Shown here in pieces: positions 994-31,679 of a stretch of 56,528 bases of DNA. Source of the DNA: a virus; IMG/VR virus record IMGVR_UViG_3300046011_010468, positions 1-56,528 of that record; one strand, written 5' to 3'. Under the pieces are notes generated by a model. The model searched no databases and was not told where the DNA came from. It saw only the letters and a list, made by a program, of their open reading frames with translations. The translations under genes and the position numbers were made by a program. How positions within the stretch are numbered: the stretch's first letter is position 1; every line of letters starts with the position of its first letter.

Positions 994-3195
994 TTAGATC
1001 GCGGGCTGGGGTGGTTCGGTGGGGGCTGGAGTGGCTCCGGGGGTGGCACCGGGGCCGGTGGGTGGGATGAGGGCCATGAGAGGCGCGATGACCTGGTCGG
1101 CGTTTTTGATGCCGTTGGCCTTGAGGATCTGGCGGAAGAGCGGGGCGAGGCGGGCCTGCACCTCGACGTTCGGCTGGGCGTAGTAGTTGGTGGCGGCGTT
1201 GGCGGCCTGGCTGTTCTGTTGGAGTTCCTGCTCCCCTCGGTATTTGGTGAGCTGGAGGTCCACGTCGAGGGTGAGGTTCTTCACCTCGTTGGGCTTGATG
1301 GTGGAGAGGGAGCCGAGGTTGCCATCGAAGAAGCGGAAGGTTTTGGTGCTCTGCAAATTGGCGGCGGCGAGGAGCATGAGCGACTTCAAAATGTCGCGGA
1401 TGCCGGCGCGGAGGTCGGATACCATTTTGTCGGTGAGTTCCTGGCCAGACTTCTCCATGTTGCGGACGCCGGTGGCGAGCTTGGTGGTGTCGAGGCCGAG
1501 GGCTTGGCCGTCGTTGACGTTGCTGACACCACTCATGTTCATGGCGATTTGCATGAGGAACTCGATCATCTCACGGAGCGGCTGGCCTTTGGTGTCGTAA
1601 ATGTCCACCTGCTGCACGGTTTCGGCGAGGGTTTTGCCGGGCTTGAGGTGGAGCGTTTCGCCGCCGTTGAGTTCGAGGTCGGGGTCGGCTTCGCCCTCGG
1701 TGGTGTTCTCTGGCTGCCAGGCGATGATTTTGCCGCTGCGGGACATGGAGAACTGCCAGCGGTTGAAGAGGAGGTCGATGGCGGTCTGGAGCGGCTCGAA
1801 CAGCTCGGCGAGGCCTTGGCCGTGGGCGCGGCCGGGGATTTTGTTGATGGTGGGCAGGCGGTAGGGGCGGCGTTTGTCGGGCGTGATGTTCTCGATGTAG
1901 TCGTAGAACAGCGGCACGGTGCCGTCACGTGTCATGATGAGCAGGATGTTGCCCTGGTTGCCGGTGTTGAGGGCGTCATACCAGAGGCAGAAGCGGGACC
2001 AGTTCACCTGCGGCTCACGTTTGTCGGTGCCGAGGCTGTCGAGCGGTTCATTGAGGTCGGCTCGGCCTTTGTTCGTGGCGGCTTGTGCCTCGGGGGTGGC
2101 GACGGTGAGGAGACGGTGGGTGAGGTTGCTGACATACTCCATGACCTGGTCCGGGGCCACGTCGTCGAGGGTGAGCAGGCGGTGGACGAGGGTGATGAGC
2201 GGCTCGTCGTAGTGGTGGACGGTTGTGTCTGCGAGTTCGAGGTTTTTGCAGTTGAGCGGGTAGAGGAAATCCGAGGGCAGCAGGATTTCGGCCTGGGGTC
2301 CTTCTTCGACGATGGTCCTGCGCCAGATGATCTGCTGCTGGTAGTTCTCTGTCCCTGGGTGCGGAGTGGTGCCGTCGCGCTTGAGCACGAGCTGGCCGGT
2401 GGGCTGCATGATTGGCTGACCGGTGGCGGGGTCTGCGGCGGGCTGCTGGGTGGCTGGATCAATGACGGGGGCCTGCTGCTCGATGAATTCGTCCTCGCCC
2501 TGGATGATGTAGTCGCCATCGGTGCCGACGACGGGCTGGCCGTCCGGTCCGAGGAGGATGGCTTTTTCGGACTGGTAGTAGGAGACGCGTTTTTGATGGA
2601 ACAACGACACGGGGCATTCGCCGCAGATGACGACACGCTCAATGATGCTGGCGAGGCTGCCTTTGGTGTCGTTTTCGGAGTCGAGGACGTGGCGGAGCCA
2701 TTTATCGAGGCGGTCGGCGAGGTCGGCGTCCTCAATTCCCACGTCGTAGGCGGCGAAGTAGGGGTCTGAGCCGAGGTAGTAGTTGATCATGCGGGCGATG
2801 ACCTGCTGGAGGATGCGCCGCGTGAGGGGGATGTGGAGATTGGAGTCCGCGAAGATGCCGCCGAGCACGGCGGAGCGATATTCGAAGCGCATCTGGTAGG
2901 ACATGAGGGCCATGTGGCGGGTGTCGAGGTGCCGCCGGCGGAAGGTGCCGTCTGCGTCGAAGGCGGAGGCGTGCCAGTTCGGTGAGTCGAAGTCGCGGAG
3001 GCCGAGTTCGTCGGCGAGTTCATCGGCGCGGTTCTTCGCGTGGATGAGGAGCGCGTCCTCCTGCGCCCGGTTCATGGACTTCGACAAGGGCGAGGGGATG
3101 AGCACGCGGGGCTTGTCTGGGTCTGGCTCCAGGAGCGGGGGTAGCTTGGAGGCGAGGGCCTGGGCCTGTGGCAGAGCGGAATCCATGCGGGGCAT
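994..3195 (-). CDS. Portal protein
   Basis: This is a 733-residue protein from ATG 3195 (an alternative ATG lies at 3186). The frame stays open upstream to 3387, but that part is only the translated 12-bp repeat array, so I reject the longer start. The protein is mostly alpha-helical with portal-like features: an N-terminal helical region (ALLIHAKNRADELADELG), a central segment rich in aromatics, the stretch GLAELFEPLQTAIDLLFNRW, and a Pro-rich tail. Length and composition fit large podovirus-type portals, which form the dodecameric ring at the DNA entry vertex. It leads a minus operon and is divergent from the terminase genes, which is unusual because portal normally follows terminase. The call rests on overall resemblance and context; no single diagnostic motif was checked. 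Confidence 0.65.
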   Translation of the reverse strand: MPRMDSALPQAQALASKLPPLLEPDPDKPRVLIPSPLSKSMNRAQEDALLIHAKNRADELADELGLRDFDSPNWHASAFDADGTFRRRHLDTRHMALMSYQMRFEYRSAVLGGIFADSNLHIPLTRRILQQVIARMINYYLGSDPYFAAYDVGIEDADLADRLDKWLRHVLDSENDTKGSLASIIERVVICGECPVSLFHQKRVSYYQSEKAILLGPDGQPVVGTDGDYIIQGEDEFIEQQAPVIDPATQQPAADPATGQPIMQPTGQLVLKRDGTTPHPGTENYQQQIIWRRTIVEEGPQAEILLPSDFLYPLNCKNLELADTTVHHYDEPLITLVHRLLTLDDVAPDQVMEYVSNLTHRLLTVATPEAQAATNKGRADLNEPLDSLGTDKREPQVNWSRFCLWYDALNTGNQGNILLIMTRDGTVPLFYDYIENITPDKRRPYRLPTINKIPGRAHGQGLAELFEPLQTAIDLLFNRWQFSMSRSGKIIAWQPENTTEGEADPDLELNGGETLHLKPGKTLAETVQQVDIYDTKGQPLREMIEFLMQIAMNMSGVSNVNDGQALGLDTTKLATGVRNMEKSGQELTDKMVSDLRAGIRDILKSLMLLAAANLQSTKTFRFFDGNLGSLSTIKPNEVKNLTLDVDLQLTKYRGEQELQQNSQAANAATNYYAQPNVEVQARLAPLFRQILKANGIKNADQVIAPLMALIPPTGPGATPGATPAPTEPPQPAI

Positions 3196-3225
3196 GGTGG
3201 GTGGCAGAATGGCGGAATGGCAAGA

Positions 3226-3241
3226 GGGTTTTGTTGCGTCA
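3226..3241 (-). promoter_or_regulatory. Shared 16-bp element upstream of portal
   Basis: Read on the minus strand this is TGACGCAACAAAACCC, 30 bp upstream of the portal start. Near-identical copies lie upstream of scaffold (8231), the HTH gene (31224) and a small cysteine-rich gene (26521, minus), each in the orientation of the downstream gene. Confidence 0.45.
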
Positions 3242-3294
3242 GTGGGAGAAATGCGGTATGGTGTGGGACCATGAAACGCCCCCTTCGTGAGTTT

Positions 3295-3360
3295 GACCGG
3301 ATGCCTGACCGGATGCCTGACCGGATGCCTGACCGGATGCCTGACCGGATGCCTGACCGG
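3295..3360. repeat. 12-bp tandem repeat array, five units
   Basis: Five exact copies of ATGCCTGACCGG follow a half unit GACCGG. The array sits between the divergent portal gene and the next plus-strand gene. It reads MPDR on the plus strand and HPVR on the minus strand, so it leaves long open frames that are probably not genes. It may be an expanded regulatory or spacer repeat; there are no spacers, so it is not a CRISPR. Confidence 0.9.
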
Positions 3361-3443
3361 AGGTGTGGGGATTTGTGGAACATCCAAAGATCACGCGACC
3401 TCTGGGGCGCGTGGCCAGTGACAACTTTCAAGCACCTCAAAAT

Positions 3444-8230: not shown

Positions 8231-8246
8231 TGTCGCAACAAAACCC
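8231..8246 (+). promoter_or_regulatory. Shared 16-bp element upstream of scaffold
   Basis: TGTCGCAACAAAACCC starts just after the terminase stop, about 40 bp upstream of the scaffold ATG. It is followed by a TTGACA-like hexamer (8250-8255). It matches the elements at 31224 (16/16) and at 3226 and 26506 (15/16 each). Confidence 0.5.
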
Positions 8247-8285
8247 GTTTGACAGTTGGGGTGTCTGCTGCCTCCCATCAGCGGC

Positions 8286-9467
8286 ATGTCTGAGGTTTCA
8301 ACCCATGCAGCCCCGCCCCACACCGACACGGTCCAGCCTGTCGCAGGAGCACCCACGTCCGCGCCCGTCCCTCCGACGGGTGACAACGCCACCCCCAACC
8401 CCAACGCAAAGCAACCGGCAGCGACTTTGGAGACGCAGGCTGGAGCGGGAGGGGGCGTGGACTTCACGAAGATGGATGCAAATGCGTATGAGCGCTACAT
8501 CGAGAGCCTGCCGGATGACGGCGAGGTGATCGAGTCCGAAGACCTGGGGTCTGCTCCTGCTACCAATCCTGCTGCTGCCCCGCCCGAGGTTAAGCCCGGC
8601 GAGGAGCATGAAGAAGGGATTCTGGCTCCGGGTAAGCTGCCCAATCGGCTCAAGGTGCCCACCGATGACGAGCTATCCTTCCACACGGCCCGGTTTTTCA
8701 AAGAATCGCGGCAGGGCGGCGGGAAGATGACCTTTGGCGAGGCTGAAACGCTGGCAAAACAGATGCTCGGCATTGCTGACGCGGCCCCGGCTGCGTCAGG
8801 TGATGTTGCTGCAAATGTGCAGCCTGAGCCTGTGGTGGTTGAACCCACCGGGCGTCTGGCGGAGCTGACGCAGCAACTCGAAGCGGCCACGGCCAATTTT
8901 GAGCAGGCGGCCGAAGGTTTTGATGCCAAAGGCCAAGCAGCGGCGCTGCGCGAGGTGAACCGGCTGAACCGGGAGATTTCAAAAGCGATGGCGGACTCCC
9001 AACGCGAGGAGGCCGATGCGGTGACGCAGCAGGCTGCCGCGCAGGAGACTTTCATGCAGCAGTGGCAGGCCACGGAAGCGCAGGTGCATGGGATGTATGC
9101 CCATGCAAATGCCGCCGACCCGGCCAGCCCGCTGCACCAACGCGCCGCCGAGATCCAGGCCAGCTACCGCGACAGCCAAGACCCGGCCATGCAGGCGATC
9201 TACAACAGCCCAAACTCGGTGCTGCTGTATTTCACCCAGGCCGCCGGCGAACTCGCCATCCAACCGTCTGCGGCTCCTGCCGCGCCGGTTTCTCCATCTT
9301 CGACCAAGTCCACGCCTCCCCCCGTTTCACGACACGTCCCCGTAGGAGCTGCCCTCCTCGCCACTCAGCAGAGTGGCAACCCGGCAGCCTTTCAGGGTAG
9401 GACGAATTACCAGCCGCAATCGCTCCACGAACTCGAACAGCTCGTGGAACGCATGGCAGCAGCGTAA
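8286..9467 (+). CDS. Putative capsid scaffolding protein
   Basis: From ATG 8286 this encodes 393 residues. It has a disordered Pro/Ala/Thr-rich N-terminus, an acidic segment, a long predicted coiled coil at about residues 195-265 (LAELTQQLEAATANFEQAAE and following), and another low-complexity Pro/Ser region before the C-terminal helix HELEQLVERMAAA. Placed directly between terminase and the capsid gene, this architecture is typical of scaffolds, which guide procapsid assembly through a basic or helical C-terminus. No protease motif is seen. A shared regulatory element precedes it, suggesting a separate late promoter. Confidence 0.6.
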   Translation: MSEVSTHAAPPHTDTVQPVAGAPTSAPVPPTGDNATPNPNAKQPAATLETQAGAGGGVDFTKMDANAYERYIESLPDDGEVIESEDLGSAPATNPAAAPPEVKPGEEHEEGILAPGKLPNRLKVPTDDELSFHTARFFKESRQGGGKMTFGEAETLAKQMLGIADAAPAASGDVAANVQPEPVVVEPTGRLAELTQQLEAATANFEQAAEGFDAKGQAAALREVNRLNREISKAMADSQREEADAVTQQAAAQETFMQQWQATEAQVHGMYAHANAADPASPLHQRAAEIQASYRDSQDPAMQAIYNSPNSVLLYFTQAAGELAIQPSAAPAAPVSPSSTKSTPPPVSRHVPVGAALLATQQSGNPAAFQGRTNYQPQSLHELEQLVERMAAA

Positions 9468-9509: not shown

Positions 9510-11012
9510 ATGGCTTACTCAGAATCCGGCCCGAACACGGGCGACTCACTTTCTGCTCAAATGGACCCGAAGGTCCTTTGGGCAGCGGGCATTGACCTCG
9601 CTGAAGCGGAAGAAGATCCACTCATGCAAATGGAAGGTGGCGCAGACGCCATCATCACCACCAAAACCGAAACCAGCGCTGGCGCTGGCACCACCATCAA
9701 GTTCCAAGTCACCTCCGATTACGGTGACGAGGGTAAACAGGGAGATGAAATTTTCGAGGACGAAGACGACTTCGAAGAGGAAATCTTCAACGATTTCGAA
9801 CTGACCGTGGACTGGGTGCGTCATGCGACGCGCTTCACGAAGCGCTCCGGCGAGATCATGGGCCTGCTGGGCGAACTCAAGCGCAAGATCCCGATCAAGC
9901 TCGGGCGCTGGCTGGGCAAATACAAGTGCCACAGCATGCTTATGACCATGCTGCACAAGACCAACGCGGCCAATCACTTCTACACGGCCAGCAGCCAGGA
10001 CAGCATCAGCGCCGGCGACGGCCTGACCTATGACGAGATCGTCAAGGGTGGTGCGATTCTGAAACCCCTCGGCGGCCAGCCGGCGGTGATCGGTCGTGAA
10101 GGTAAAAATTCCATCTGGGGTGCTGTCGTTCTCGCGACGGATAACGCCACCTATGGCCTCAAGCTCGATCCGATCTACCGCCAGAACCTCCAGACGGGTT
10201 TTGTGCAAGGTCGGGATAACCTGCTCTGGAAGGGTGGCGTCGCCAATGTGGATGGCCACCTCATCAAGGAATACGTTCCTCTTCGTGGCGACATTGAAGG
10301 CGCGGTGGGTTCTCCCCTGAATCCGCAGGCGCTGCTCGGAGTCGCCGTCGCTGGTGGCACCACCGCCCTGCAAATCAAAGGCGGCGGCAACGCCACCTCG
10401 GCAGCCAAGACCAAGAAGAAGTATTTCAAATACTTCCCCAAATACGCCTTCCGCTGGCGTCCAGGTCAGGGCACCCGCACGGCAGACACACTGTCTGCCA
10501 CGTCCGAAATCTGCTGGGACCTCACGGCCCTGGGCGAGGACGGTGCAACGGCGAACGTGTTCTACGTCCGCATCACCAATCCGCCGAACGCGGCCACGGA
10601 CCCTGGCAAGTGGTGCATCTACGAAATCACGACCAACGATGGCAACATCATGACGACCTCCGCTCGTCTGGGTGCCACCGACTCCGGTCAGCGCTACCAG
10701 ACGGTCGGCGCGGTGACGTGGGATGCCAACAAGCACACCGTGACGCATGGTGAAGGCTCGCTGGTGACGCTGTGCAACGCGGCTGGGGTTTCCCTCGGTG
10801 CCACGCTCTTCCTCTACCGCCAGGCGGCGTATCGGGGCTACGGCTCGGTGCGCAACCAGCGCCAGGAAGACAGCAAGAACGGCAACTTCGTCCAGGAGCG
10901 CTACATCGAGAGCGTCTTCGGCCAGTGCCTCCGCGAGGACACTCGCGGCAACAAGCCGGCCATCGCGGTGATCAAACACGCGATCTTCTATCCGGGCATC
11001 ATTGATGCTTAA
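9510..11012 (+). CDS. Major capsid protein
   Basis: This 500-residue protein lies immediately after the scaffold and before a strong terminator, the typical place and size for the shell subunit. It has a short N-terminal arm, an acidic loop (DEIFEDEDDFEEEIFNDFEL), a helical spine segment (SGEIMGLLGELKRKIPIKLG), and many beta-prone, Gly/Ala/Thr-rich stretches towards the C-terminus. The sequence is reminiscent of the DUF4043/N4-gp56-like HK97-fold capsid proteins, but I cannot confirm that subfamily by eye. Less common codons are rare, fitting high expression. Confidence 0.7.
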   Translation: MAYSESGPNTGDSLSAQMDPKVLWAAGIDLAEAEEDPLMQMEGGADAIITTKTETSAGAGTTIKFQVTSDYGDEGKQGDEIFEDEDDFEEEIFNDFELTVDWVRHATRFTKRSGEIMGLLGELKRKIPIKLGRWLGKYKCHSMLMTMLHKTNAANHFYTASSQDSISAGDGLTYDEIVKGGAILKPLGGQPAVIGREGKNSIWGAVVLATDNATYGLKLDPIYRQNLQTGFVQGRDNLLWKGGVANVDGHLIKEYVPLRGDIEGAVGSPLNPQALLGVAVAGGTTALQIKGGGNATSAAKTKKKYFKYFPKYAFRWRPGQGTRTADTLSATSEICWDLTALGEDGATANVFYVRITNPPNAATDPGKWCIYEITTNDGNIMTTSARLGATDSGQRYQTVGAVTWDANKHTVTHGEGSLVTLCNAAGVSLGATLFLYRQAAYRGYGSVRNQRQEDSKNGNFVQERYIESVFGQCLREDTRGNKPAIAVIKHAIFYPGIIDA

Positions 11013-20693: not shown

Positions 20694-20951
20694 GTGCCAA
20701 TTGCTGACCCAGATGCCCGACGAGATTACATGCGCGAGTACCATGCTGAGTATCGGCTGGGCCTGCGGCGGACGGAGGCTCTGGCGGTCGTCGATGCGCG
20801 GATGGATGAGCGGCGGGCGGAGCGTGAGGCTTATCTGCGGGACTGGGCTGCGGTGAATCGAGCACGGCGGGCGGCGGCGCGGCGAGAGCAGCGGCGGGCG
20901 GCACGGCACGCGGCCTTGGCTGGGGCGCTGGGCAAAGTGAACTTTTCATGA
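20694..20951 (+). CDS. Small Arg-rich helical protein
   Basis: The 85-residue frame starts at GTG 20694; ATG 20730 is an in-frame alternative. It begins MPIADPDARRDYMREYHAEY, a pattern often seen in short phage or plasmid proteins with YMREY-type motifs. It continues as a long Arg/Ala-rich helix (NRARRAAARREQRRAARHAA). Nucleic-acid binding is likely from charge, but no specific role is known. The stop overlaps the start of the next gene by 4 bp, so the two form a short plus-strand operon right of attP. Confidence 0.55.
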   Translation: MPIADPDARRDYMREYHAEYRLGLRRTEALAVVDARMDERRAEREAYLRDWAAVNRARRAAARREQRRAARHAALAGALGKVNFS

Positions 20952-21604
20952 CTATGAGCACGACACAAATCACGACATTGGAGGTGGAGATCGAAGGAAT
21001 CTCGAAGGCAGAGCGGGAGATGCTGGCCGACATTTTGAACGACGCGAGGCTGTCGGCTGAGCGGTTGGCGAAGGCGGCGGCGAAGTGGGTGTCGCTGGCG
21101 GTGGAGTCTCGCGAGAAGATCGCGGCCCAAAGTAACCCTTCGCTGCGGGATTTTTGGGCGCGGTTGACGAAGGTGGGCGAGGGCCTGCTGCATCCGCAGC
21201 TTGTGATGATCGGAGGCCGGGCGGCGACGTGTTTGGGAAAACTGCCGCTGGAAGATCAGGAACGGTATCTGCGGGAGAGGCTGCCGGTGGTGGTGCGGCG
21301 TGGTCGCGGCTTTGATGTGCGGCTCGTGGACGTGGCGGAGATGACCGAGGACCAGCGGCGGCAGGTGTTCAAGGTGGCGGACTCGGGCGCGGTGACGGTG
21401 CGCGATGATGAGGCGCAGAAGGCCTACTTTGCGAACCGGGCGGCGCAGATGCTGGTGGAGCAGGAGCGCCAGGACGGCATGAAGAAGGTGGAGCGCGTGG
21501 GATGGCGCGTGGAGGGCGGCAAGGTGTGGGTCAAGGAGGACAAGGTGGAGAGTGGGATCACGCGGCGAGATCTGCTGACGATGCTGCGGGATCTAGGTGA
21601 GTAG
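20948..21604 (+). CDS. Hypothetical protein, helical with C-terminal basic domain
   Basis: This encodes 218 residues; ATG 20954 is a second start option. An N-terminal coiled-coil-like region (GISKAEREMLADILNDARL) leads into LVMIGGRAATCLGKLPLEDQ and then LPVVVRRGRGFDVRLVDVAE. The C-terminus has a Trp/Lys-rich stretch (RVGWRVEGGKVWVKEDKVES) before a final helix. I do not recognise the family. Its 3' end overlaps, on the other strand, the remnant of a methyltransferase gene by about 45 bp. Confidence 0.65.
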   Translation: MTMSTTQITTLEVEIEGISKAEREMLADILNDARLSAERLAKAAAKWVSLAVESREKIAAQSNPSLRDFWARLTKVGEGLLHPQLVMIGGRAATCLGKLPLEDQERYLRERLPVVVRRGRGFDVRLVDVAEMTEDQRRQVFKVADSGAVTVRDDEAQKAYFANRAAQMLVEQERQDGMKKVERVGWRVEGGKVWVKEDKVESGITRRDLLTMLRDLGE

Positions 21605-22083: not shown

Positions 22084-22718
22084 AGAGGGAGTTTGGCGGG
22101 TGGGGTGTCGCGGAATTGTTTCCAGAGTCGGGTGTGGTCGCGCATTTGGGTGTCGGGGATCGCGATGGCTCCGCACTGGAGGGCGAGTTCGTGCTTGCGG
22201 CGGGTGAGGTCGTAGTGCGGCACGAGCTTGTTTTGATACCAGCGTGGATCGAGGGCGAGGGCACCGAGGGCGAAGGTGTGGAGGTAGTCCTCCCAGCCGG
22301 GCAGGCAGTGGAGGTGGCTGGAGCCGTCTTTAAAGCATTTGCGCTCGGTGGGCCAGATTTGCAGGCGGTCGGTGTAGATGAGGCTCGTTGCTGGATGCTG
22401 GATGCTGGATGCTGGATCGGAGTCAGAAGCGTCGATGAGAAAGCGGGAGATGTAGTCGGCGATGGGTTGCCATTGGACCCAGTGCTTGGCCCAGGGCTGG
22501 GCGTTGACCCAGAGGAGGTAGTCATGCGGGATGGCGCGGAGGTGTTTGCCGGCGTGGGGACCGACGGGGATGAAGTCGTCCGGCATGAGGACGCGGCTGC
22601 TGTTGCGGCGGGCGTAGTGGGGGATGCCGGCCTTGGCGGCGCGGCGGGTGGGATCGATCTGGCGGCCGTTGAAAAGGCGGTGACGGCGTTGGTCGTCGTG
22701 GTTGAAGATGACGCTCAT
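22080..22718 (-). CDS. QSregVF-like plus DUF4031-like fusion
   Basis: The 212-residue protein appears to join two small domains. Residues about 45-95 (DDFIPVGPHAGKHLRAIPHD, then YLLWVNAQPW) resemble the DUF3820/QSregVF pattern of a Gly-Lys turn followed by an IP-x-x-YL-x-W helix. Residues about 115-200 (SSHLHCLPGWEDYLHTFALG, then HYDLTRRKHELALQCGA) resemble DUF4031, with its HL, LH-FA and HYDLT-KR-AL-GA landmarks. Between them lies an in-frame heptad microrepeat read as PASSIQHPATS, acting as a linker. Both families are of unknown function in phages. The call is by pattern only. Confidence 0.5.
   Translation of the reverse strand: MSVIFNHDDQRRHRLFNGRQIDPTRRAAKAGIPHYARRNSSRVLMPDDFIPVGPHAGKHLRAIPHDYLLWVNAQPWAKHWVQWQPIADYISRFLIDASDSDPASSIQHPATSLIYTDRLQIWPTERKCFKDGSSHLHCLPGWEDYLHTFALGALALDPRWYQNKLVPHYDLTRRKHELALQCGAIAIPDTQMRDHTRLWKQFRDTPPAKLPL
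22385..22420 (-). repeat. GGATGCT heptad repeat as protein linker
   Basis: Heptads GGTTGCT/GGATGCT are repeated four times and are translated on the minus strand as SSIQHPATS between two domains. Confidence 0.8.
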
Positions 22719-26209: not shown

Positions 26210-26497
26210 TTATTGGCACATGGGGAGATCGGCGAAGGGCATGCCGAGTTCGGCGCAGTGGGTGCTGGCCTGGGGATGGCTGGAGGGCCGGCGGTGGTGG
26301 TGGAGTCCGTGGTTGGCGGAGAGTAGGCTGCGGGGTAGCTCCCAAAGTCCGGTTTCTGGCATGAGGGTGCCATCGTCGTCACGGGGTGCGAGGTCGGACA
26401 GGATGCAGGGGGCGATGTCGCGGAGGAAGCAGCCGCTTGGGAGGGCGGCGCAGAGGTGGCAGTCGCCGTCGTGGTCGGCGTCGTTGGGGCAGGTCAT
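26210..26497 (-). CDS. Small cysteine-rich protein
   Basis: This encodes 95 residues from ATG 26497, in ATGA overlap with the replisome-organiser-like gene. The N-terminus MTCPNDADHDGDCHLCAALP with SGCFLRDIAPC has five cysteines plus histidines spaced as in small zinc knuckles. The C-terminus is His-rich (ANHGLHHHRRPSSH). Zinc or other metal binding is plausible. Unlike most neighbours it has the shared 16-bp element within 10 bp of its start. Confidence 0.55.
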   Translation of the reverse strand: MTCPNDADHDGDCHLCAALPSGCFLRDIAPCILSDLAPRDDDGTLMPETGLWELPRSLLSANHGLHHHRRPSSHPQASTHCAELGMPFADLPMCQ

Positions 26498-27648
26498 GCG
26501 GCGTGGGGTTTTGTTGTGACAGTGGGGTGGCGGTGGACGCCGGTGGCGGCGAGGAGGCCGGCGAAGGCAGCGGCGTTTTCGGCGGGGGGAAGTTCGGGGG
26601 CGGGGGGTGGTGTGACGCGTGACGTGACGCGGGGCGTGACGGCGTCGCCGAGGCGTGGTGCTCCGGCTTGCTTCCAGGCGGTGGTGGCGCGGTCGAGCAG
26701 GGCGGCGAGGTCGTGGCAGAGGTGTGCGCGACGGGCGGAGACTTTGACGGGGTCTTTCTGGCCGGTGTTCTGGGCGCTGTTGGCCCATTTGAAAAACCAG
26801 GCGAGGAGGTGCCAGTCCTGGTCGTCGAGTACTGCGAGGTTGTGGCGGGCTTCGTAGAGCGCGGATTCCTCTTCGGCGCTCCAATGCGGGGTCTTGGTCC
26901 AGCTCGGGCGGAGGGCGTTGATGCGGCGTTTCAGGGTGCCGAGGGGGTCGGGGTCTGGTGGAGTTGACGGTGGTTGACGGTGGTTGACCTGGTTGACGGG
27001 GTGTTCTGAATCAGAGTCAGAGATCTTAGATTCAGAGATAGATAAAGAAGAAGATAAAGAGGGCGTTACGTTATTCTCTTCGTGACGTTGCGTGACGCGT
27101 GACGTGACGCGTGACGTGACGGGGTTGGATGCTTGATCCTGGATGCTGGATGCTTGCTGCTCCTGATTTTCGGCGTCGGTAAGTTGTTCCACGGCGGCCT
27201 TGGCGGCTTTTTTCTTGTCGCGAGAGCGTTGAGCACGCCTCGCGGCGGCGGTCTTACTGCGCTCTCCGTTTTTGTCGGGCGCGTTGTGTTCCACAAAGCG
27301 GGGGAGGGTGACGGTGTGGGCCTCGGGGTCGTGGATGGCGTAGCCGACGGACTGCATGGCCTCGCCGAATCCGGGGATGTGGGCAAGGGCGTCAAGGTAG
27401 GAAAGGTCGGCGTGACGGAAGACGCCGTCGGTGGTGTGGTCGTTGGCGGCGAACCAGACGCGTGACAGGCCCATCACCGTCACGTCACGCAGGGCGTTAC
27501 GCGTCACGGTATCCGTCACGCTTCCAAACAAGTCTTTGGCCTGGCTGGTGAGGATGTAGCCGGGGGCGGATTTGGCGATGTGGGCGGCCATGCGGTGGAC
27601 GCGTGGGTCGCTTTCGAGGTCGGCGCGGATTTTGATCCAGGAGGGCAT
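26494..27648 (-). CDS. Replisome-organiser-like protein
   Basis: This 384-residue protein begins MPSWIKIRADLESDPRVHRM, closely resembling the N-terminal winged-helix start of phage replisome organisers and DnaD-like initiators, which bind the origin and recruit helicase. The first 120 residues hold the putative DNA-binding domain (SYLDALAHIPGFGEAM, TVTLPRFVEHNAPDKNG). The middle is low complexity, with in-frame microrepeats read as SSIQDQASN, TSRVTSRVTQ and VNQVNHRQ. The C-terminal domain (LRPSWTKTPHWSAEEESALY) looks helical. Family membership is inferred from the N-terminus. Confidence 0.55.
   Translation of the reverse strand: MPSWIKIRADLESDPRVHRMAAHIAKSAPGYILTSQAKDLFGSVTDTVTRNALRDVTVMGLSRVWFAANDHTTDGVFRHADLSYLDALAHIPGFGEAMQSVGYAIHDPEAHTVTLPRFVEHNAPDKNGERSKTAAARRAQRSRDKKKAAKAAVEQLTDAENQEQQASSIQDQASNPVTSRVTSRVTQRHEENNVTPSLSSSLSISESKISDSDSEHPVNQVNHRQPPSTPPDPDPLGTLKRRINALRPSWTKTPHWSAEEESALYEARHNLAVLDDQDWHLLAWFFKWANSAQNTGQKDPVKVSARRAHLCHDLAALLDRATTAWKQAGAPRLGDAVTPRVTSRVTPPPAPELPPAENAAAFAGLLAATGVHRHPTVTTKPHAA
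26506..26521 (-). promoter_or_regulatory. Shared 16-bp element variant
   Basis: On the minus strand it reads TGTCACAACAAAACCC, one base from the scaffold copy, and ends 8 bp before ATG 26497. Here it lies inside the end of the upstream coding sequence, so coincidence with a VTTKP codon run is possible. Confidence 0.3.
26611..26640 (-). repeat. GTGACGC-type microrepeat in coding sequence
   Basis: GTGACG/CGTGAC units are translated as VTPRVTSRVTPPP in the C-terminal part of the replisome-organiser-like gene. Confidence 0.6.
26963..27000 (-). repeat. TTGACCTGG-type microrepeat in coding sequence
   Basis: Four 9-10 bp units are read as NQVNHRQPPS on the minus strand. Confidence 0.6.
27080..27121 (-). 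repeat. GTGACGC-type microrepeat in coding sequence
   Basis: A 12-bp unit (GTGACGCGTGAC) is repeated and is read as TSRVTSRVTQ. It lies immediately beside a GGATGCT heptad tract, so two repeat families are stacked. Confidence 0.65.
27125..27161 (-). repeat. GGATGCT heptad repeat in coding sequence
   Basis: Heptad units, including the variant TTGATCC, are translated as ASSIQDQASN. Confidence 0.75.
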
Positions 27649-30470: not shown

Positions 30471-30570
30471 GGGTTTGTGTGCAGTTCGTGCTACTCTGTG
30501 CATATTGCTCTTTCTGGGGTGGCGTGCAACTTCAATTTGCAAATAATGCAAGCGGGTGCATTCTGCACAT
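30471..30570. promoter_or_regulatory. Divergent switch region
   Basis: These 100 bp separate the RHH-like gene (minus) and the XRE gene (plus). TGTGCA/TGCACA half-sites occur at about 30488-30492 and 30563-30568, and TGCA-TTC-TGCA at 30557-30567. The region is AT-richer than its flanks and should contain both early promoters. Confidence 0.55.
30537..30551. promoter_or_regulatory. Inverted repeat operator candidate
   Basis: TTGCA-AATAA-TGCAA is a perfect 5-bp inverted repeat with a 5-bp centre, 20 bp upstream of the XRE start. This spacing suits a dimeric XRE repressor. Confidence 0.55.
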
Positions 30571-31182
30571 ATGACTATTACTGGTGAGGCACTTAAAGCG
30601 TGGCGCGAAGGGCGTCGGCTGTCGCAGGTCGACGTCGGGGGCATGCTGTGCGTGTCTCACTCAGCGGTGAACCGATGGGAGTCCGGCCAAGACATTCCGG
30701 GTCCGGCGCAGTTGCTGCTGGGGATGCTCATTCACGGCGAGATGCCGTTTGGGAAGCCGGAGGACACGAGCGCCGAGGAGGAGAAGCACTTCTGGCAGTT
30801 GAAGCTGTCCCTGGCCGACTGGCACAAGCTGGAAGGTCTGGCGGCGGCGGCGGGATTCGCGACGGTGCGGGATTACCTGCTGTCGCTCATTCAGGAGCAT
30901 TTGGCTTCGGAGGGTTTTGCTGGACAGTCTTATAATTATGGAAATAATAACCCTGTATGCCAGACTCCCTACTCAAATGTCGCGACTGTCATTTCCTCCG
31001 AAACCGGCCCCAAAGCGCCATCACTCCCAACCTCGGGTGCTCCTATTGTCCCGCTACCGACAGCACACTGGTCCGGGGCCGGAAAGGCCGCCGCAAAGGC
31101 GGCCGAGATCGAGGCCCAGACGCCAGTGAGCGCCGAGCGGCAGGCGGTGGGGCATGAGGTGCCGAAACGCCGGAAGAAGTGA
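30571..31182 (+). CDS. XRE-family repressor
   Basis: From ATG 30571 the first 60 residues form a clear XRE helix-turn-helix: ITGEALKAWREGRRLSQVDV, GGMLCVSHSAVNRWESGQDI and PGPAQLLLGMLI. The middle region (FWQLKLSLADWHKLEGLAAA) is helical and could dimerise. After about residue 120 the frame overlaps a zinc-ribbon ORF in another frame, and codon bias falls for about 35 codons, so the true C-terminus is uncertain. Divergent orientation and nearby inverted repeats suggest that it is the lysogeny or early-gene repressor. The BRO/ANT antirepressor is its likely antagonist. Confidence 0.8.
   Translation: MTITGEALKAWREGRRLSQVDVGGMLCVSHSAVNRWESGQDIPGPAQLLLGMLIHGEMPFGKPEDTSAEEEKHFWQLKLSLADWHKLEGLAAAAGFATVRDYLLSLIQEHLASEGFAGQSYNYGNNNPVCQTPYSNVATVISSETGPKAPSLPTSGAPIVPLPTAHWSGAGKAAAKAAEIEAQTPVSAERQAVGHEVPKRRKK
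30957..31157 (+). CDS. Zinc-ribbon ORF overlapping the XRE gene
   Basis: In a different plus frame, ATG 30957 starts MPDSLLKCRDCHFL, with CSYCPATDSTLVRGRKGRR further on. Two CxxC pairs about 20 residues apart form a zinc-ribbon pattern followed by a basic tail; total length is 66 residues. Third-position GC bias supports this frame from 30957 to about 31060, after which it favours the XRE frame. An AT-rich TATAAT-like box precedes the ATG. It may be an independent gene, or a sign that the two genes were fused or shifted. Confidence 0.5.
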   Translation: MPDSLLKCRDCHFLRNRPQSAITPNLGCSYCPATDSTLVRGRKGRRKGGRDRGPDASERRAAGGGA

Positions 31183-31210: not shown

Positions 31211-31223
31211 CTTTGCTTATGGC

Positions 31224-31239
31224 TGTCGCAACAAAACCC
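31224..31239 (+). promoter_or_regulatory. Shared 16-bp element upstream of HTH gene
   Basis: TGTCGCAACAAAACCC is identical to the copy upstream of scaffold and ends 23 bp before ATG 31263. The surrounding sequence is unrelated, so the match stands out as a site rather than a larger duplication. Confidence 0.5.
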
Positions 31240-31262
31240 AACCTTAATGACGATCTTGAAGC

Positions 31263-31679
31263 ATGAAGCCGCTCCCCCCTGCCCTGCGAAATGGCCTGCT
31301 GCGGATGCGGCGGGAGAATGCGACGTTTTCGACGATCTCGAAGGCGTTTGGGGTGCCGGTGGGGACGGTGAAGAGTGTGTGTAGTAAGGAGGGTGTGAAG
31401 CCGCGCATGGAACCCCTAGTTGCGAAGGGGAAGGCCCAGAAGATGGAACCCCGGAAGAAAGAGGGGAGAGGGGAGAGGATAGAGGCGGTGCATCGGGGGC
31501 TGCGGCTGGAGGATATGCCGGGGCGGACGAGGTGGGAGCGGCGGAGCACGTTTGCGCTGTTCAAGCGGGGCGAGTGGCCCCCCCTGCACTGGCATATTCC
31601 GACGAAGCTGGAGGGCGCGGAGTTGCGCGAGATGCTGATGGAGCGGGCGGTGATGTATAAACCCAAAGCGAAGCCATGA
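31263..31679 (+). CDS. HTH protein, sigma-region-4-like N-terminus
   Basis: The 138-residue protein begins with a helix-turn-helix: LRNGLLRMRRENATFSTISK followed by AFGVPVGTVKSVCSKEGV. This is the order seen in sigma-region-4-like and Hin-like HTHs (AFGVPVGTVKS as recognition helix). The rest is Lys/Arg-rich with Trp motifs (WPPLHWHIPTKLEGAEL). It is in the plus cassette, coupled by a 4-bp overlap to the RusA-like gene, and has the shared 16-bp element upstream. It could be a late-gene activator, which is an inference. Confidence 0.6.
   Translation: MKPLPPALRNGLLRMRRENATFSTISKAFGVPVGTVKSVCSKEGVKPRMEPLVAKGKAQKMEPRKKEGRGERIEAVHRGLRLEDMPGRTRWERRSTFALFKRGEWPPLHWHIPTKLEGAELREMLMERAVMYKPKAKP

Follow-up and report, generated by a model that had tools for sequence, protein, structure and literature searches.

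A dispersed 16-mer oriented towards gene starts as a candidate recognition site for a phage-encoded regulator in a temperate phage lineage of probable Verrucomicrobiota hosts

A 16-nucleotide word was found to recur before four genes of the window, the whole 56,528-nucleotide stretch of viral DNA analysed here, and to be conserved in related phage contigs. The word is proposed to be an asymmetric recognition site for a phage-encoded transcription regulator, which would activate the capsid operons and repress at early and regulatory genes, a reading that is given an even chance of being correct. What is new here is the placement of the 16-mer at the capsid operons, where it ends 0–2 nt before a putative -35 box, probably the position of an activator.

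The window is a contig of a temperate tailed phage and encodes an SU10-like portal protein, a terminase, a scaffold protein, a capsid protein, an integrase, a replication initiation protein (Rep), an antirepressor, a CI-like repressor and a 7277-aa polyvalent protein. The last of these is a single ORF (34650–56483, minus strand) containing RadC and polyvalent-protein kinase domains, and is conserved in the relatives. The capsid and portal proteins had no match among the records of the phage collection searched. One distant relative was located in a Verrucomicrobiales MAG, which makes Verrucomicrobiota the probable host phylum.

Exact copies of the word, TGTCGCAACAAAACCC, lie on the plus strand at 8231–8246 (site 2) and 31224–31239 (site 4), and copies matching at 15 of 16 positions lie on the minus strand at 3226–3241 (site 1, TGACGCAACAAAACCC) and 26506–26521 (site 3, TGTCACAACAAAACCC). 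Site 1 is located 5' of the portal operon, 30 or 39 nt from a portal ATG; the probable start of this gene (994–3186, minus strand) is the second ATG (MDSALPQ), which is the sole ATG start kept in the relative G009. Site 2 is directly 3' of the terminase stop codon and 39 nt before the ATG of the scaffold gene (8286–9467, plus strand), itself upstream of the major capsid gene (9510–11012). Site 3 falls within the final codons of the Rep gene (26494–27648, minus strand), 8 nt before a small Cys-rich gene (26210–26497, minus strand) that overlaps the Rep stop by ATGA. Site 4 lies between the gene of the CI-like repressor (30556–31182, plus strand; HTH_31/HTH_3) and a gene for a 138-aa HTH protein (31263–31679, plus strand), 23 nt before the start of the latter, and is also inside a 15-codon ORF (31219–31266) that overlaps this start. 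A recount reproduced exactly the positions, strands and match grades given in a preliminary description of this DNA, and the downstream starts that it had placed 8–40 bp away, before the portal, scaffold, HTH and Cys-rich genes, were confirmed at 8–39 nt. The description of the surroundings as otherwise unrelated DNA held upstream of the sites but not downstream, where the portal and scaffold leaders share a TTG(A/C)CA box in the same place.

No further copies of the 16-mer were present in the window at up to 3 mismatches. A first-order Markov model of the window gave an expectation of approximately 0.0017 matches with at most one mismatch, while shuffling gave 0.55 matches with at most three, and one shuffle in 100 reached four. 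To control for multiple testing, a scan over every 16-mer of the window looked for families with at least four well-separated members at no more than one mismatch. The word formed the sole dispersed family of four, heptamer arrays and a few GC-rich runs aside, and five simulated windows contained zero families of this size. The heptamer (TGCTGGA)n occurs as short arrays at 22382, 24798, 27132, 27927, 32921, 35822, 38534, 41272, 49796, 54209 and 54408, several of them inside the giant gene; the arrays are present in the close relative G003 and in no other relative, apparently reflecting a recent spread of the repeat.

The motif search in related phages that had been suggested as a check was run on five longer contigs and revealed that the motif is conserved, with 3–6 sites in each contig compared to 0–2 for a reversed-pattern control; a few weaker matches inside coding sequence, mostly with 3 mismatches, were disregarded. 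The sites were nearly always co-oriented with the following gene, 2–39 nt upstream of its start, and recurred before the portal gene, the scaffold gene, the gene after Rep, the HTH gene and the first gene after the giant gene. Site 1 is conserved in L152, L153, L117, G004, G008 and G009. The profile of 28 sites was sharp, with an extended consensus of AnYGTCGCAACAAAACCC, barely conserved flanks and information limited to A at -2 followed by Y-GTCGCAACAAAACCC, although the sites were picked by similarity, so that the core is biased upwards and only the edges are unbiased. The portal leaders of L117 and L152 are near-identical from the motif onward and unrelated upstream of it. Between the window and G003 the flanks differ at both the Cys-rich and the HTH gene while the motif is kept, and the bases 3' of the motif at the HTH gene differ by an indel. 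In G003 (L190, about 9290–9323) a palindromic repeat, CCCTCCGTAGCTCGCCCGAGCGAAGGAGGG, is inserted in the coding end of Rep directly before the motif.

Just one exact 15-mer was found in 388 Verrucomicrobiota genomes, and in the MAG holding a relative the motif was no more frequent than the reversed pattern; a host promoter or regulatory motif of Verrucomicrobiota was ruled out by this near-absence and lack of enrichment. Most of the 116 matches to a degenerate 16-mer in viral contigs were set aside as chance or coding repeats in unrelated phages. Conservation in a group of approximately 45% capsid identity, with GTCACAACAAAAACC before the capsid gene, was likewise not counted, as the matches were variable and C/A-rich and reversed controls were nearly as frequent. 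A literature search on the core word returned unrelated papers alone.

The sites fall into two placements. At the portal and scaffold genes of the window's clade and of a more distant fragment, G020, the motif ends 0–2 nt upstream of a TTG(A/C)C(A/T) box (class A), and the distance from the start of the box to the ATG is 34–38 nt, for the portal throughout the clade as well. In the window the putative -35 boxes are TTGCCA (3218–3223, minus strand), which follows site 1 by 2 nt and precedes the portal ATG at 3186 by 37 nt, and TTGACA (8249–8254, plus strand), 37 nt before the scaffold ATG. A TTGACA-like box 36–38 nt before the scaffold ATG was found in most relatives, down to approximately 40% capsid identity, the distant cases sharing ancestry and not being independent counts; L171, L172, L181, L202, L203 and L206 are among the genomes with a scaffold box at this fixed distance. 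In the distant box-bearing relatives the motif is missing and the DNA upstream of the box is often A/T-rich, and only in the window's clade and G020 is the motif adjacent to the scaffold box. Because the same box stands at the same distance in distant relatives without the motif, its conservation suggests that it is probably the -35 element of an old sigma-70-type promoter. The simplest reading is that this ancestral promoter would have gained, in the window's branch, a site spanning about -39 to -54. In the motif-less genome G039 a fitting -10 box (CATAAA, CATAAT) follows 17 nt after the box at both genes. The -10 boxes of the window's capsid promoters are poor, with three of six positions matching. 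The fixed spacing of the box across this deeply diverged group suggests that the capsid transcripts are perhaps leaderless, starting at or near the ATG. A perfect 12-bp tandem repeat, TGACCGGATGCC, is present in 5.7 copies at 3294–3361, just 5' of the portal promoter, and may serve as an iteron-like element in regulation or as an origin.

The best evidence for a putative trans-acting reader is a concerted change in G020, a single 7.7-kb fragment whose capsid protein is 63% identical to that of the window. Its portal and scaffold genes both carry TGACGCGACACYACCC-GC-TTGAC, with flanks that are otherwise different. The same altered word at both promoters is what would be predicted of a trans-acting factor reading the site.

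The second placement (class B) comprises the HTH gene, the gene after Rep and the first gene after the giant gene, with the motif mostly 2–24 nt before the start. Recognisable promoters either lie 5' of these remaining sites or bear no relation to them. At G008:50764 and G009:28364 the motif begins 4 nt after TTGAAA-N16-TATATA/TATTAT and would thus cover the first transcribed bases, so that these two sites, right after a -35/-10 pair, would occupy an operator or leader position. No promoter was visible at the Rep/Cys-rich junction. In the window itself the motif is missing from the first gene after the giant gene, where TTGACG stands 38 nt upstream of the ATG.

These placements bear on an explanation at the level of RNA, in which the word would be a C/A-rich 5' leader element, akin to the start-associated sequences described below, and would control translation of the following gene by attracting ribosomes or an RNA-binding protein. 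Every site in the window is sense-oriented and 8–39 nt before a start codon, the motif of G008 and G009 begins at the expected transcript start, the Rep/Cys-rich junction leaves no room for a promoter outside the Rep coding sequence, and several distant capsid-protein leaders are likewise C/A-rich. At the capsid genes, however, the motif is upstream of the -35-like box and would therefore be untranscribed, and the 2–39 nt range of distances to the start does not suit a leader of this kind. The structure predicted for the capsid leaders was no better than that of shuffles, there was no Rfam match, and the motif is not seen in the host phylum. A role in translation is considered possible but unlikely.

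If the site is bound by a protein of the phage, as preferred here, the HTH protein (31263–31679) is a possible binder. The N-terminal part of this protein resembles sigma-70 region 4, weakly and below threshold, in three homologs. All four motif-bearing genomes that span the locus contain its gene, a count that excludes G008 and G004, which seem to end within the HTH region, and no homolog was detected in the motif-less G039. The motif stands at the HTH gene in the window, in G003 and, farther from the start, in G009, and G002 has a diverged copy. In G009 and G002 the protein departs somewhat from the window in its recognition region, which is thus not strictly conserved, and a fold search gave weak generic HTH matches alone, none with E <= 0.001. 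A 218-aa protein encoded beside the integrase (20948–21604, plus strand) is 78–94% identical in the other motif-bearing genomes covering that locus, a conservation approximately equal to that of the capsid protein, and has no family match. It was rejected as the reader: it is present in all motif-bearing genomes covering the locus, but has no domain and gave a low-confidence model.

The CI-like repressor is a less likely reader, since its DNA-reading helix changes between the window (SHSAVNRWESG) and G003 (SSPSTVKSWEDG), two genomes that share an identical motif. The same change weighs against the proposal that the words are stoperator-like, that is, asymmetric sites at which this immunity repressor (30556–31182) would silence lytic operons in the lysogen. 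The phage is temperate, with integrase, repressor and antirepressor, and the sites are asymmetric, follow transcription and lie near start/stop overlaps, as in mycobacteriophage L5 (PMC9283540). Yet G002 combines the same motif with a repressor of only 36% identity, the genomes have 3–6 sites each rather than more than twenty, and the adjacency to a -35 box is specific to capsid genes. This proposal appears improbable.

It is very unlikely that the word acts like an UP element, with its A-rich core upstream of the -35 contacting the alpha subunit of the host RNA polymerase and no phage factor involved. Many distant relatives are simply A/T-rich at this place, for example CTTAAAAAAAATAC-TTGACA, but a fixed word of 15–16 bases containing GTCGC and CCC is atypical of UP elements, and no class B site has a -35 box downstream of it. 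A coding coincidence or a mosaic junction can be given hardly any credence: the word does read in frame as VATKP at the Rep end and in short ORFs before the HTH and scaffold genes, and the flanks of L117 and L152 do switch exactly at the motif, but Ala and Thr are GCA and ACA at nearly every site (ACA ACA in the window's Rep), although GCA accounts for 10% of Ala codons and ACA for 6.5% of Thr codons, the frame at the portal varies among genomes relative to the gene, and recombination joints are not expected to orient toward starts. The fixation of third codon positions as A despite the rarity of GCA and ACA indicates selection on nucleotides. A leader peptide VATKP was dropped as a candidate, the wobble bases being fixed and the frames differing.

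The preferred reading is a single DNA-binding regulator, activating at class A sites and blocking at class B sites, which would account for the orientation, the spacing and the set of genes. Bound directly 5' of the -35 box at class A sites, the regulator would help RNA polymerase in the manner of a class II activator, and the two divergent capsid operons would be transcribed from sigma-70-type promoters that start at or beside the ATG. At class B sites the same protein would sit between the start codon and the preceding promoter or gene, acting as a repressor or roadblock. One protein would in this way raise the capsid genes and damp the early genes, perhaps including its own. Both the binding of a protein and the sign of its effect are inferred here. 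A good -35 box beside an activator site is unusual for the class II pattern, and it is an assumption that one factor works at two distances from the start. The word had been put forward either as the site at which a phage regulator binds to coordinate the capsid genes with the HTH gene or as a core promoter. The former is favoured by the conservation, direction and phage specificity of the word, by the turnover of its flanks and by its concerted change, while the latter is disfavoured, as the TTGACA box just downstream seems to be the core element. A more specific form of the model is doubtful: one sigma-4-like phage protein and one asymmetric site in two placements, activating at leaderless capsid promoters and repressing at the transcript starts of early genes including its own, would constitute a one-protein switch from early to late expression in a lineage without a cultured member.

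The finding gives a first regulatory handle on a lineage of temperate phages that probably infect Verrucomicrobiota and for which the phage collection searched gave no match. It supplies a marker for the regulon, a predicted capsid promoter in which the distance from -35 to ATG is fixed, and a named candidate regulator, and the model predicts that the capsid mRNAs are leaderless and activator-dependent.

When the element was compared with known systems, the closest described were the start-associated sequences (SAS) of cluster K mycobacteriophages and the stoperators of cluster A. SAS have the consensus GGGATAGGAGCCC and a function that is unproven, and in about half of cases they are preceded by 17-bp imperfect inverted repeats (ESAS) (PMC3203893). 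Like SAS, which are conserved between subclusters, the word described here is short, asymmetric and phage-specific, stands in one orientation immediately before the starts of unrelated genes (all four sites in the window and the gene-proximal sites in relatives, at 2–39 nt) and can run into the stop codon of the preceding gene. Unlike SAS, the sites at capsid genes adjoin a -35-like box, and the spacing between site and start is more variable. The consensus AnYGTCGCAACAAAACCC does not agree with that of SAS when up to two deviations are allowed, and the profile of 28 sites contained no conserved upstream partner of the ESAS type. The stoperators and operators of cluster A are asymmetric sites of a 13-mer class, oriented with transcription and located in promoters and short intergenic gaps, and L5-like phages have more than twenty asymmetric stoperators per genome, bound by the immunity repressor (PMC9283540). 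The orientation of the present sites also follows transcription, but there are only four in the window and 3–6 in relatives, and the local repressor alters its DNA-reading helix while the motif is unchanged. The proposed mode of action would resemble that of phi29 p4 (PMC3100819) and Mu C (PMC4461284), in which one phage protein binding near the -35 activates late promoters; p4 also represses early promoters (PMC3100819). The adjacency of the site to the putative -35 at portal and scaffold, in the clade and in G020, is consistent with this class II-like pattern. In contrast to these systems no homolog of p4 or C was identified here, and p4 uses several sites in one region where the present sites are single and spread over the genome. 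Since the SAS sequence definition does not apply and the copy number is not that of stoperators, the element is placed in neither family and is most likely a phage regulon site of a known kind with a new sequence, whose concerted change at two loci provides an added case for the question of what start-associated phage sequences do.
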